A stretch of 13,769 nt of DNA. It comes from Chloroflexota bacterium. GTDB taxonomy: Bacteria > Chloroflexota > Anaerolineae > J102. Position 1 is the first letter of the stretch. Every line of letters begins with the position of its first letter. The position numbers and the translations under genes are program-made. The stretch is from assembly GCA_013152695.1 (NCBI GenBank), contig JAADFV010000425.1, positions 1-13,769 of the forward strand. Reading direction: 5' to 3'. The notes beneath the pieces were generated by a model that was not told the DNA's origin, did not search any database, and was given only the letters and a program-made list of their open reading frames with translations. This document shows, piece after piece, positions 4,660 to 7,139 of the stretch.

Positions 4660-4689
4660 TTGACAAACCTAGGATAAACAACGTAAAAT
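4660..4689 (+). promoter_or_regulatory. Promoter of tRNA-Cys
   Basis: TTGACA (4660-4665), an 18-bp spacer and TAAAAT (4684-4689). The predicted start is near 4696, a few bases before the mature tRNA. The -35 box begins 2 bp after the end of the inverted-repeat element. Confidence 0.75.
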
Positions 4690-4700
4690 AAGGTAACTGC

Positions 4701-4773
4701 GGCGACGTAGCCAAGTTGGTTAAGGCAGGGGTCTGCAAAACCCCGATCGCGGGTTCGAGTCCCGCCGTCGCCT
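4701..4773 (+). tRNA. tRNA-Cys (GCA)
   Basis: A complete cloverleaf. Acceptor GGCGACG (4701-4707) pairs with CGTCGCC (4766-4772). The D stem is GCC/GGC. The anticodon stem GGGGT (4728-4732) pairs with ACCCC (4740-4744), with loop CTGCAAA giving anticodon GCA (4735-4737). The T stem GCGGG/CCCGC encloses TTCGAGT. The discriminator base is T (4773), the identity base expected for tRNA-Cys. The 3' CCA is not encoded. It would read both UGC and UGU, the two Cys codons in the cysK leader ORF downstream. Confidence 0.97.
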
Positions 4774-4780
4774 TTAATCG

Positions 4781-4809
4781 AAGCGCCAGTATTTTCTGGC
4801 GCTTTTTTT
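4781..4809 (+). terminator. Intrinsic terminator of tRNA-Cys
   Basis: A perfect 9-bp stem, AAGCGCCAG (4781-4789) with CTGGCGCTT (4796-4804), loop TATTTT, running into a T tract (4803-4809). It makes the tRNA a separate transcription unit. The next ~145 nt, to the cysK promoter, hold nothing I recognise except a tandem GTTGCCGCG (4882-4890 and 4892-4900). Confidence 0.9.
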
Positions 4810-4954: not shown

Positions 4955-4983
4955 TTGACACAATGCCTCATATCTTCTATAAT
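4955..4983 (+). promoter_or_regulatory. Consensus promoter of the cysK leader
   Basis: A perfect TTGACA (4955-4960), a 17-bp spacer and a perfect TATAAT (4978-4983). The start of transcription would be near 4990, giving a leader of about 305 nt before cysK. Such a strong promoter fits a gene controlled after initiation, by attenuation. Confidence 0.85.
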
Positions 4984-5025
4984 TCACACAACCTCATTGC
5001 TTTACATGATAGGAGCCTATTCCCT

Positions 5026-5058
5026 ATGTTTTTTGATCTCATTTGCATCTGTCTCTAG
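5026..5058 (+). CDS. Cysteine leader peptide, 10 aa (MFFDLICICL)
   Basis: A short ORF in the cysK leader: ATG 5026, ten sense codons, TAG 5056-5058. A Shine-Dalgarno AGGAG (5011-5015) lies 10 nt upstream. Two of the ten codons are Cys (TGC 5044-5046 and TGT 5050-5052), in the run C-I-C just before the stop. Codons 4 to 9 form the 5' strand of the 5035-5117 stem, so the position of a ribosome here decides whether that stem can form. This is the hallmark of an attenuator leader peptide. The function is predicted: the peptide is a sensor of charged tRNA-Cys rather than a product with a job of its own. It is too short for similarity-based gene finders. Confidence 0.75.
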   Translation: MFFDLICICL

Positions 5059-5117
5059 CGGAAGCCACTGTGGGATACTTCCCCCGGTTGACTTCCGCAT
5101 GCAGATGCAATGAGATC
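5035..5117 (+). promoter_or_regulatory. Attenuator stem 1:2 (anti-antiterminator) of the cysK leader
   Basis: GATCTCATTTGCATCTG (5035-5051) pairs with CAGATGCAATGAGATC (5102-5117) as a 16-bp stem with one bulged base. An inner stem GCGGAAG/CTTCCGC (5058-5064/5092-5098) and a small GGGA/TCCC hairpin (5072-5075/5080-5083) lie within it. Strand 1 holds both Cys codons of the leader peptide. With charged tRNA-Cys plentiful, or with no translation, this stem would sequester strand 2 and leave the terminator free to fold. Confidence 0.75.
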
Positions 5118-5236
5118 GAATGAGTGACTGACTTTGAGTTCGACTCAGCCCTCAGAGAGTCGAGACTCGATGGCAAACTGAATTTATTGGCGAATTTCCA
5201 TATCTGGCGCATTTCGCACTTCTTCGACTCATTGCA
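5106..5236 (+). promoter_or_regulatory. Predicted antiterminator pairing 2:3 of the cysK leader
   Basis: TGCAATGAG-A-TCGAA (5106-5120) is complementary to TTCGACTCATTGCA (5223-5236): 14 bp with a single bulged A (5115). It uses the same strand 2 as the 1:2 stem and the whole 5' arm of the terminator, so it excludes both. It would form when a ribosome stalled at the Cys codons covers strand 1. Small hairpins in the ~100-nt linker (TGAGT/ACTCA 5135-5147; GCGAA/TTCGC 5190-5217) could bring the arms together. Confidence 0.7.
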
Positions 5237-5266
5237 CTACCTTGTGGCAATGAGTTTTTTTATTTT
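5227..5266 (+). terminator. Attenuator terminator (3:4) before cysK
   Basis: ACTCATTGC (5227-5235) pairs perfectly with GCAATGAGT (5247-5255), followed by a run of seven T (5255-5261), A and four more T. It is a complete intrinsic terminator lying between the promoter and the cysK start, about 30 nt before the ATG. Transcription of cysK therefore requires that it be bypassed. Confidence 0.88.
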
Positions 5267-5296
5267 CCAAGTTTACCGCATTCAGGAGCAGCACTT

Positions 5297-6253
5297 ATGA
5301 CCACTCAACTTCCTTCTGGCCCTCGTGTCGCAGAAAACATCACCCAACTTATTGGCAACACGCCTTTGGTACGGATCAATCGTCTCGCTACCTATGCTAC
5401 AGCCTCGATTGTCGCTAAGCTCGAGTTCTTCAATCCTGGCGGCAGCGTCAAGGATCGCATTGGTCTGAGCATGATCGAAGCAGCGGAAGAGGCCGGACTT
5501 CTCGGTCCCGACACCATTATTCTCGAGCCCACCAGTGGCAATACTGGCATTGCCCTGGCCTTTGTGGCGGCAGCCAAAGGCTATCGCTGCACACTCGTCA
5601 TGCCAGACACCATGAGTAAAGAGCGACGCATTCTTCTGCGGGCCTACGGCGCCGAGCTCATTCTCACTCCTGGTTCAGAAGGGATGATTGGCGCCATCAA
5701 CAAGGCGCAGGAAATGGCCGATCAGGATCCCCGCTACTTCATTCCCCAGCAATTTCAGAACCCAGCCAACCCCGAAATCCACCGCCGCACCACGGCCATG
5801 GAAATCTGGCGAGACACAGCGGGTCAGGTGGATATTGTTGTAGCCGGCGTAGGCACGGGGGGCACCATCACCGGCGTGGGCGAAGTCCTCAAAGAAAAGA
5901 AGCCTTCAGTGCAGATGATTGCCGTCGAACCGAAAGATTCGCCTGTGCTTTCCGGTGGGAAACCCGGTCCCCACAAGATTCAGGGTATCGGCGCCGGTTT
6001 CATCCCCTCTGTTCTGAACACCGAGATAATCGATGAGGTGTTCACGGTGAGTAATGAAGATGCTTTTGCCACGGCTCGCCGCGCCGCCACACTCGAGGGA
6101 CTGTTAGTCGGTATTTCCTCCGGCGCCGCCCTCTATGCCGCGGTCGAGGTTGCTCGTCGCCCCGAGAACGCGGGTAAGCTCATCGTTGTCATTATTCCCT
6201 CCAATGGTGAACGGTATCTCAGTACCCCTCTCTTTGCCCATCTTGACGTTTGA
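5297..6253 (+). CDS. cysK: Cysteine synthase A (O-acetylserine sulfhydrylase)
   Basis: A PLP-dependent beta-replacement enzyme making cysteine from O-acetylserine and sulfide in the cytoplasm. The 318-aa protein has the normal family length. Visible landmarks: the PLP lysine K52 in NPGGSVKDR, the substrate loop PTSGNTG (78-84), the phosphate-binding GTGGT (186-190), the CysK signature [12 protein letters not shown] (226-237), and GISSGAA (272-278) with the Ser contacting the pyridine nitrogen. The start at ATG 5297 has AGGAG (5284-5288) 8 nt upstream. It is preceded by the Cys-codon leader and terminator and followed by cysE, so both steps of cysteine synthesis lie together. The prediction is control by transcription attenuation in response to Cys-tRNA(Cys) supply. 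Cystathionine beta-synthase-like members share the fold, but length and signature favour CysK. Confidence 0.96.
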
Positions 6254-6395: not shown

Positions 6396-7139
6396 ATGAC
6401 AACTACATCTCCCTCTCCCTTACTGAAAATGACCATTTTACAAACCCTGCAACGTGACATCCGCGCCGTTTTCGATCGAGACCCGGCCGCACGATCGACA
6501 CTTGAAGTTCTATTGTGCTATCCAGGTCTCCATGCCATCTGGATTCATAGGCTAGCGCACTGGTTGTGGCAGCACCATTTCTTTTTGCTTGGCCGCTGGC
6601 TGTCCCATCTCGGCCGCTGGCTCACCGGCATCGAAATCCATCCCGGGGCAGAGATCGGACCGGGCTTATTCATCGATCACGGCATGGGAGTCGTCATCGG
6701 TGAAACCACAGAAATCGGGGAATCGGTGACTCTGTATCATGGTGTTACCCTGGGCGGCGTCAGTTGGCGTAAGGAAAAACGCCATCCGACCCTGGGTAAC
6801 CATGTTGTGGTTGGCGCTGGCGCCAAGATTCTCGGGCCCATCACCATCGGCGATTACACCCGCATCGGTGCCAATTCGGTCGTCATCAAAGATATTCCCG
6901 ATAATGCGATCGTCGTCGGCGTACCCGGTCGTGTCCATTCACGCAATGGCGAATACGTGCGCGATCATAGCCATGAAGACCTTCGCCACAATGCTCTTCA
7001 TGATATTACGATGGAACGCTTGAATGCCGTCTCGGAACGCCTGGAACGGCTTGAACAGGAATTACAGCGCGCCAACGGCCGTTTTAATGCTGAAGCAGAC
7101 ATGCTGCAACAGGCCTATAGCGGTCCTTGGGGCATCTAA
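6396..7139 (+). CDS. cysE: Serine O-acetyltransferase (EpsC/CysE type)
   Basis: Acetylates L-serine with acetyl-CoA to give O-acetylserine, the substrate of the CysK encoded upstream. The 247-aa protein is of the short EpsC kind. An N-terminal helical region (about 12-75, with [20 protein letters not shown]) is followed by a left-handed beta-helix of hexapeptide repeats (about 80-180). The catalytic pair D94-H95 sits in [12 protein letters not shown]130 in KRHPTLG, and the end of the helix reads IVVGVPGRV. Residues 205-230 look like a short coiled coil. ATG 6396 is used, but the ribosome site is weak (ACGG only). The family similarity begins near M12 (ATG 6429), which also lacks a good site, so the start is uncertain. 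The 142-nt gap from cysK holds a strong stem-loop. The product may form the cysteine synthase complex with CysK. Confidence 0.94.

Follow-up and report, generated by a model that had tools for sequence, protein, structure and literature searches.

Classical attenuators, such as those of the trp, his, leu, and ilv operons, place, before the biosynthetic genes, a short open reading frame (ORF) whose codons include those of the product amino acid, with the leader RNA pairing as strands 1:2, 2:3, and 3:4 and carrying an intrinsic terminator. In the trp leader of E. coli, a ribosome at the stop codon reaches strand 2. The leader described here lies ahead of cysK-cysE in a window of 13,769 nucleotides (the whole stretch of DNA analysed) from a Chloroflexota bacterium, and shares with the classical attenuators the short ORF, the product-amino-acid codons, the 1:2, 2:3, and 3:4 pairings, and the intrinsic terminator. 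It differs from them in reading cysteine, in its lineage, and in the 43 nt and inner hairpin that separate the stop codon from strand 2. At the level of sequence, a promoter and a short ORF that is predicted to be translated stand ahead of cysK, with the two Cys codons of the ORF matched by cysteine-synthesis genes downstream (cysK, cysE and, in relatives, cysO/cysM-type genes). The leader is very probably a ribosome-mediated transcription attenuator responding through its cysteine codons.

Attenuation by cysteine is not new in kind, with the leaders of Rhodobacterales cysS and the mycobacterial poly-Cys leaders as precedents. The available parts of PMC8632094 describe the uORFC-8-2 motif of Rhodobacterales cysS, in which a short ORF with Cys codons is accompanied by two stems and a U-run terminator, with Cys-tRNA attenuation predicted and the tandem Cys codons usually at positions 14-15. 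Going by that portion of the source, Cys codons in a short ORF and a U-run terminator are common to uORFC-8-2 and the cysK leader, whereas the former belongs to cysS of the Alphaproteobacteria, with tandem Cys codons and no mention of a C-x-C/GCGG core, and the latter precedes cysK and has its Cys codons at positions 6 and 8, which sets it apart from the motif as described there.

The actinobacterial Cys leaders, in the available sections of PMC1262725 and PMC4633059, are short ORFs with Cys codons before cys genes, with runs of Cys codons near the stop, and the authors found no conserved terminator hairpin. In M. smegmatis, leaderless Cys ORFs are described as acting on translation (Canestrari 2020, as cited in PMC9031893, in the part available). 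These mycobacterial poly-Cys ORFs, in the same partial account, are leaderless, with contiguous Cys codons and no terminator, whereas the cysK leader has an AGGAG site, a C-x-C arrangement, and a terminator, and lies outside that class. By gene, codon layout, or lineage, the leader is outside the uORFC-8-2, actinobacterial, and mycobacterial Cys systems as these sources present them. A tiny ORF encoding MGCCCC in the cysK region of Mycobacterium colombiense, one of our comparison loci, is consistent with the published actinobacterial leaders.

An earlier sequence-only reading of this DNA had noted Cys-responsive leaders as known in some Actinobacteria, for which the accessible parts of PMC1262725, PMC4633059, and PMC9031893 supply the precedents. 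Its suggestion that the arrangement might be new may hold for the phylum, with no description of a Cys attenuator in Chloroflexota found in the open-licence literature, but not for the principle, already predicted for Rhodobacterales cysS in the available part of PMC8632094. The element has no matching family in Rfam 15.

Architecture of the cysK leader

All parts of the leader lie on the forward strand. The promoter TTGACA-17-TATAAT occupies positions 4955-4983 (-35 TTGACA at 4955-4960, -10 TATAAT at 4978-4983) and matches the consensus at 12/12 bases, as the description of it as perfect implies, with transcription probably starting near 4990. An AGGAG ribosome-binding site (5011-5015), 10 nt ahead of the ATG, precedes a leader ORF of 10 codons (5026-5058, with the stop codon at 5056-5058) that reads MFFDLICICL, codons 6 and 8 of which are Cys codons (TGC-ATC-TGT, 5044-5052, with TGC at 5044-5046 and TGT at 5050-5052). 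Strand 1 (5035-5051) has strand 2 (5102-5120) as its partner, with CAGATGCAATGAGATC of strand 2 pairing with strand 1 and TGCAATGAGATCGAA pairing with strand 3. The 1:2 duplex joins 5035-5051 to 5102-5117 through 16 pairs, one base of strand 1 being bulged out, and positions 5106-5120 of strand 2 are complementary to strand 3 (5223-5236), which forms both the 3' half of the antiterminator and the 5' arm of the terminator. The intrinsic terminator (5226-5261) consists of the strand 3/strand 4 hairpin and seven T (5255-5261), with an energy of -14.3 kcal/mol; it is absent from the list of a simple terminator scan of the window, probably because its stem is bulged.

Between strands 1 and 2 lies an inner hairpin (5058-5098), formed by GCGGAAG (5058-5064) and CTTCCGC (5092-5098) and evident both in the sequence and in its conservation among relatives. 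Its first base is the last base of the leader stop codon, and its GCGG lies 14 nt from the start of the first Cys codon. Additionally, a copy of strand 3, CTCATTGC, is found at the start of the transcript (4993-5000) and has strand 4 as its partner in the modelled antiterminated fold, a pairing that would block the terminator in that way too.

The genes cysK (cysteine synthase A, 5297-6253; NCBIfam TIGR01139, 477 bits against a cut-off of 351) and cysE (serine O-acetyltransferase, 6396-7139; TIGR01172, 249 bits against a cut-off of 211) are directly downstream of the leader, and the nearest relatives of this cysK are from Chloroflexota. The sequence-only reading had named both genes, which pass these cut-offs, had listed the AGGAG site, and had placed the ORF with its two Cys codons, the 2:3 complementarity, and the 3:4 hairpin with its seven T where we find them. 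Its 1:2 pairing over 16 bp is likewise present, although the bulge went unmentioned, and its list of parts is accurate in every position but omits the inner hairpin, well conserved though that is.

A tRNA-Cys gene (4701-4773) lies directly upstream of the cysK promoter and is flanked by its own promoter-like (4660-4689) and terminator-like (4780-4805) sites. Among 27 related loci scanned, of which L001 and L081 cover the same place, tRNA-Cys was found at one (L026), on the opposite strand, and a conserved tRNA-Cys gene beside cysK was rejected on that count.

Folding of the leader and the predicted switch

The leader RNA (4990-5268) folds with an energy of -97.4 kcal/mol, compared with -66.2 +/- 4.5 kcal/mol in 200 shuffles (z -6.88), and the energy of the 1:2 duplex of the window (-24.4 kcal/mol, z -4.7) was reached by 0/200 shuffles of strand 1. 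In the minimum-free-energy fold of the leader, 1:2 and the terminator are present together. With the ribosome modelled as a masked footprint of 31 nt and pairing probabilities computed for the strands, masking at Cys6 shifts P(1:2) from 0.96 to 0.00, P(2:3) from 0.00 to 0.996, and P(3:4) from 0.73 to 0.003, and masking at Cys8 gives a P(2:3) of 0.991 and a P(3:4) of 0.008. In these masked folds the window has mutually exclusive 1:2, 2:3, and 3:4 pairings with a terminator and U-run. This agrees with the earlier proposal that a ribosome at a Cys codon frees strand 2 and blocks the terminator, and the expectation that masking 5026-5067 would switch the fold from terminator to antiterminator was borne out (P(2:3) 0.971, P(3:4) 0.027).

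The parallel drawn with trp/his-type logic is apt in that the four strands alternate, but fails at the stop codon, where a mask also yields 2:3 (P(2:3) 0.957, P(3:4) 0.04), unlike in trp. Since a ribosome that has reached the stop codon still covers strand 1 and leaves strand 2 free, and since 43 nt and the inner hairpin stand between the stop and strand 2, termination needs release of the ribosome there, and we infer that termination in replete cells relies on such release.

In the proposed mechanism, RNA polymerase would by default make strand 1, the inner hairpin, and strand 2, with 1:2 closing around the inner hairpin, strand 3 being left to strand 4, and transcription ending near 5261. 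With Cys-tRNA ample, the ribosome would read both Cys codons and leave at the stop codon, allowing 1:2 to re-form and termination to follow. With Cys-tRNA short, the ribosome would wait at codon 6 or 8, covering strand 1 and leaving strand 2 free; 2:3 could then form ahead of the synthesis of strand 4, and cysK-cysE would be transcribed. Translation of the leader ORF, stalling, dependence on tRNA charging, and termination in the cell are presumed in this scheme, with charged tRNA-Cys as the likely signal.

Core motif and leader peptides in related genomes

Regions upstream of cysK were gathered from 80 loci of cysK relatives in named genomes and from a survey of 249 genomes belonging to the same class as the nearest named relative, 111 of which have a cysK match at E<=1e-110, with 60 of the further cysK matches taken as regions, giving 166 distinct regions with that of the window included. 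The core, defined as TGY-N3-TGY-N5-GCGG inside an open leader ORF, is found in 35/83 of the class-survey Chloroflexota cysK regions (83 of 85 being used, as two were too short), against a mean of 0.16 and a maximum of 2 in 100 rounds of shuffling, and in 15/25 named Chloroflexota cysK regions, against a shuffle mean of 0.06. None of the 55 other cysK regions, being those loci whose titles do not name Chloroflexota, has the core (shuffle mean 0.13). The excess over shuffles is ~200-fold, for a motif noticed in the same data before counting and in regions that are related to one another. The sequence-only reading had pointed to conserved Cys codons in orthologous leaders as a mark of the attenuator; many leaders do retain two Cys codons within a short ORF, but the core is missing from 48/83 of the surveyed regions. 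The nearest relative without the core (L002) has a cysK of 80 per cent identity, and a cysK without a core of its own can sit far down a row of genes at whose head the element stands, as at L215.

The Cys reading frame is open at 51/51 core occurrences in 111 cysK regions and at 21/21 in 31 cysO regions, and hence at 72/72 cores, compared with 54/72 and 16/72 for the remaining two frames. Ten alternative codon classes at the place of the Cys codons give 0-2 occurrences each. When the distance is left free, GCGG lies 14 nt from an open-frame C-x-C in 51/71 cysK counts, with 13 at 20 nt and 7 scattered, and in 21/27 cysO counts, with 5 at 20 nt and 1 at 13 nt; the 20-nt cases are compatible with C-x-C-x-C leaders when the distance is measured from the first Cys.

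Short C-x-C ORFs recur upstream of cysK in the Chloroflexota regions, with leader peptides such as MHCTPLICICL, MTQPLICICL, MQRPLICICM, and MTQPLVCICL in the nearest group, and TCMCLRRGS-like and HTCSCLKRA-like peptides in further groups. The TCMCLRRGS-like leaders are here termed type-B; their strand pairings were read by eye, with the masking fold alone computed, and what is claimed for them is limited to the core and, in many cases, a terminator. Four cysK leaders (L120, L123, L138, and L148) encode CxCSC peptides and carry GCGGAG downstream of the Cys codons, and may be a third structural type. The methionine leader peptide of Streptomyces lividans metNIQ ends in CMCRRMCAF, with a C-x-C-R-R like that of type-B, in the available part of PMC8079986, and that leader may respond to cysteine rather than methionine.

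Conservation of the stems

A set of 22 type-A leaders (the window and 21 relatives) was chosen for a recognisable core, strand 2, and strand 3, and all elements, together with a hairpin and T-run, are present in 22/22 of these chosen leaders, the terminator search having no shuffle control. Stems were tested on gapless fixed blocks, an earlier whole-leader MAFFT alignment having misaligned the inner hairpin, with the 3' arm of the inner hairpin picked by best pairing, strand 3 by its hairpin and T-run, and 1:2 taken in one fixed register. Through the choice of the inner 3' arm and strand 3, the pairing percentages lean upward. On these blocks, 1:2 is paired in 71.8 per cent of cells (31-50 when slid; covariation score 0.284 vs 0.146), the inner hairpin in 90.4 per cent (36-54 when slid; 0.334 vs 0.189), and 2:3 in 95.0 per cent (25-42 when slid; 0.244 vs 0.173), the last being 209/220 cells with 11 double changes, compared with 3.2 in shuffles. 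The score, the pairing percentage, and the number of doubly changed cells are each reached by 0/500 shuffles in 1:2, the inner hairpin, and 2:3.

The two covariation measures described as least misled by relatedness give a different result. Of 500 shuffles, 323 (1:2), 265 (inner hairpin), and 18 (2:3) reach the observed count of pairs showing a double change, and 404, 175, and 173, in the same order, reach that of further pair types; for 2:3, the latter count is also reached by 662/2000 shuffles. As these stricter measures are unremarkable, common descent may account for some of the excess. Compensatory changes in the alternative stems, which the sequence-only reading had looked to for support, are thus favoured by the conservation of the stems and by scores above those of shuffles, but not by the stricter measures. 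Two leaders are telling as single cases: L149 has GCGGTGAG, CTCACCGC, and CGGTGAG in strands 2, 3, and 4, where most leaders have GCGATGAG, CTCATCGC, and CGATGAG, and L124 has GGG/CCC/GGG in place of the GAG/CTC/GAG of most leaders. A free search for the 1:2 duplex across the 22 leaders gives a mean of -18.7 kcal/mol, where swapped partners give -15.6 and shuffles -14.5, but exceeds shuffles (p<0.05) in only 6/22.

Full-length equilibrium folding was run first, as a general test of the switch, and folding of RNA halted after strand 3 followed. With the mask in place, full-length folds lose the terminator in only 3/22 type-A and 4/18 type-B leaders, because the local terminator wins. In the halted RNA, masking the Cys codons lifts P(2:3) by >0.2 in 15/22 type-A leaders, with the mean P(2:3) rising from 0.22 unmasked to 0.69 with the first Cys masked and 0.55 with the second; 5/22 already form 2:3 with no ribosome, and two (L118 and L149) barely form it even with one. 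The difference between the two treatments is read as kinetic, and the full-length result counts against the simplest form of the model. Among 52 loosely matched leaders, 7 have no terminator, one of which (L142) had one on a second search.

A second operon and spread in the phylum

A model built from 22 cysK leaders only (R1), in which leaders of cysO/cysM-type genes took no part, was applied to 26 genomes, chiefly ones picked for a known cysK leader, and gave a match at E<=0.05 in 24/26. Six leaders of non-cysK (cysO/cysM-type) genes were found unprompted: one in G001, ahead of another cysteine-synthase-like gene that shares 44 per cent identity with cysK of the window, and one each in G118, G066, G228, G058, and G125, ahead of a ThiS/MoaD-like gene. 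R1 also matched, weakly, in G002 and G039 in this run, and in G533, where the ORF list has no cysteine-synthesis gene downstream.

The second operon preceded by the element has the order cysO-moeZ-rhodanese-cysM. At L219, its first gene encodes a ThiS-family protein (PF02597, with NF041918 just above cut-off) and its further genes a ThiF+rhodanese protein, a rhodanese, and a CysM-like synthase (TIGR01138, 378 bits, below the cut-off of 394; TIGR01136 above its own cut-off), with DUF4395 and thioredoxin-like proteins added at L218. The ThiS/MoaD-like, ThiF+rhodanese, rhodanese, and CysM-like genes resemble the CysO-CysM-MoeZ cysteine pathway of Mycobacterium as given in the available part of PMC3227635, unlike which DUF4395 and thioredoxin-like genes follow at L218. 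By this likeness, the function of the second operon in Chloroflexota would be the CysO route. At L215 (G125, contig 47), the attenuator is followed by cysO-like, moeZ-like, cysM-like, and DUF4395-like genes, another ORF, and cysK-like and cysE-like genes, a row that, with its genes named by likeness, joins both cysteine routes.

Of 249 genomes searched with the ThiS-family protein, 126 gave a match, and among the best 30 of these 126 inspected upstream, with the locus of the query included, 20 have the core in an open leader. A terminator-like hairpin is present in 20/21 cysO leaders (the 20 core carriers and L215; again a search with no shuffle control), and the 5' arm of the terminator has an antiterminator partner in 13/20, measured against shuffles (p<0.05). 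Offered 22 non-cysK leader loci preselected by core or earlier match, R1 at E<=0.01 finds 18, missing L227, L236, L241, and L246. The CysK/CysE and CysO/CysM routes are predicted to form one regulon.

A strict R1 scan of 400 genomes of the phylum gave matches at E<=0.01 in only 10, with G001 and G022 being known members and the match in G533 not lying ahead of a cysteine gene. A further model built from 42 leaders (R2) gave one weak match (E 0.012) among 27 genomes, of which 16 came via comparison loci and 11 were Chloroflexota with a type-B leader or none, and found no type-B leader in those 11. The scans place the full type-A structure in part of the phylum, with the core being wider.

Alternative explanations

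Arrest of the ribosome through a nascent peptide has an example in TnaC. It is conceivable, but improbable, that the nascent C-x-C peptide likewise senses cysteine, a thiol, a persulfide, or a metal in the exit tunnel and arrests the ribosome, in place of a response to tRNA-Cys charging. The predominant spacing of the Cys codons would suit such a peptide: for two Cys codons ending at N5-GCGG, 51 cases before cysK have one codon between, vs 1, 2, and 6 with 0, 2, and 3 between, and 21 before cysO have one, vs 2, 4, and 1 with 2, 3, and 4 between. That spacing is, however, also explicable by pairing with strand 2. Furthermore, the residue between the Cys residues varies (Ser, Ile, Met, Leu, Val, rarely others), as do the rest of the peptide and its length (6 to over 30 aa), and the same RNA positions encode a stop (TAGCGG) or Lys-Arg (AAGCGG), which points to a constraint on RNA.

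Control of cysK translation or RNA stability, or action with a protein regulator, with the terminator incidental, appears very unlikely. Mycobacterial poly-Cys ORFs act on translation, according to the available part of PMC9031893, and some relatives are without a terminator by scan, but terminator arms and a T-run accompany 22/22 type-A and 20/21 cysO leaders, in the searches without shuffle control described above, and the 5' arm shows complementarity to strand 2.

A small-molecule riboswitch or T-box binding its ligand directly, with the ORF a by-product, is scarcely credible and was rejected, as the high degree of structure (z -6.88) and the tRNA-Cys gene just upstream are outweighed by Rfam, in which tRNA alone reaches gathering score in the window, 17 related loci give two sub-threshold eukaryotic families (E 0.41 and 0.44), and the T-box model has no match in the window or those 17 loci at E<=0.5, by the Cys frame being open at 72/72 cores compared with 54/72 and 16/72 in the other frames, and by the presence of tRNA-Cys in 1/27 related loci, on the opposite strand.

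Implications

Attenuation through cysteine codons is the preferred reading of the leader. A broader reading, held tentatively and at slightly less than an even chance, is that in much of the Anaerolineae-like Chloroflexota one undescribed RNA family governs both the CysK/CysE (sulfide) and CysO/MoeZ/CysM (sulfur-carrier) routes by Cys-codon attenuation, and that its geometry, C-x-C followed by a GCGG hairpin at a distance of 14 nt from the first Cys codon, acts as a ruler. With a ribosome halted at that codon, strand 1 would be covered but the inner hairpin would not be reached, and this hairpin would stay folded and hold RNA polymerase in step.

Leader-peptide attenuation by cysteine would extend to Chloroflexota, with the gain of a searchable RNA family that lacks a match in Rfam 15. 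The element ahead of the CysO-like operon of uncultured Chloroflexota would offer an independent argument for its role in cysteine synthesis, and the 14-nt spacing between Cys codon and hairpin would make ribosome-polymerase coupling directly testable in such leaders.
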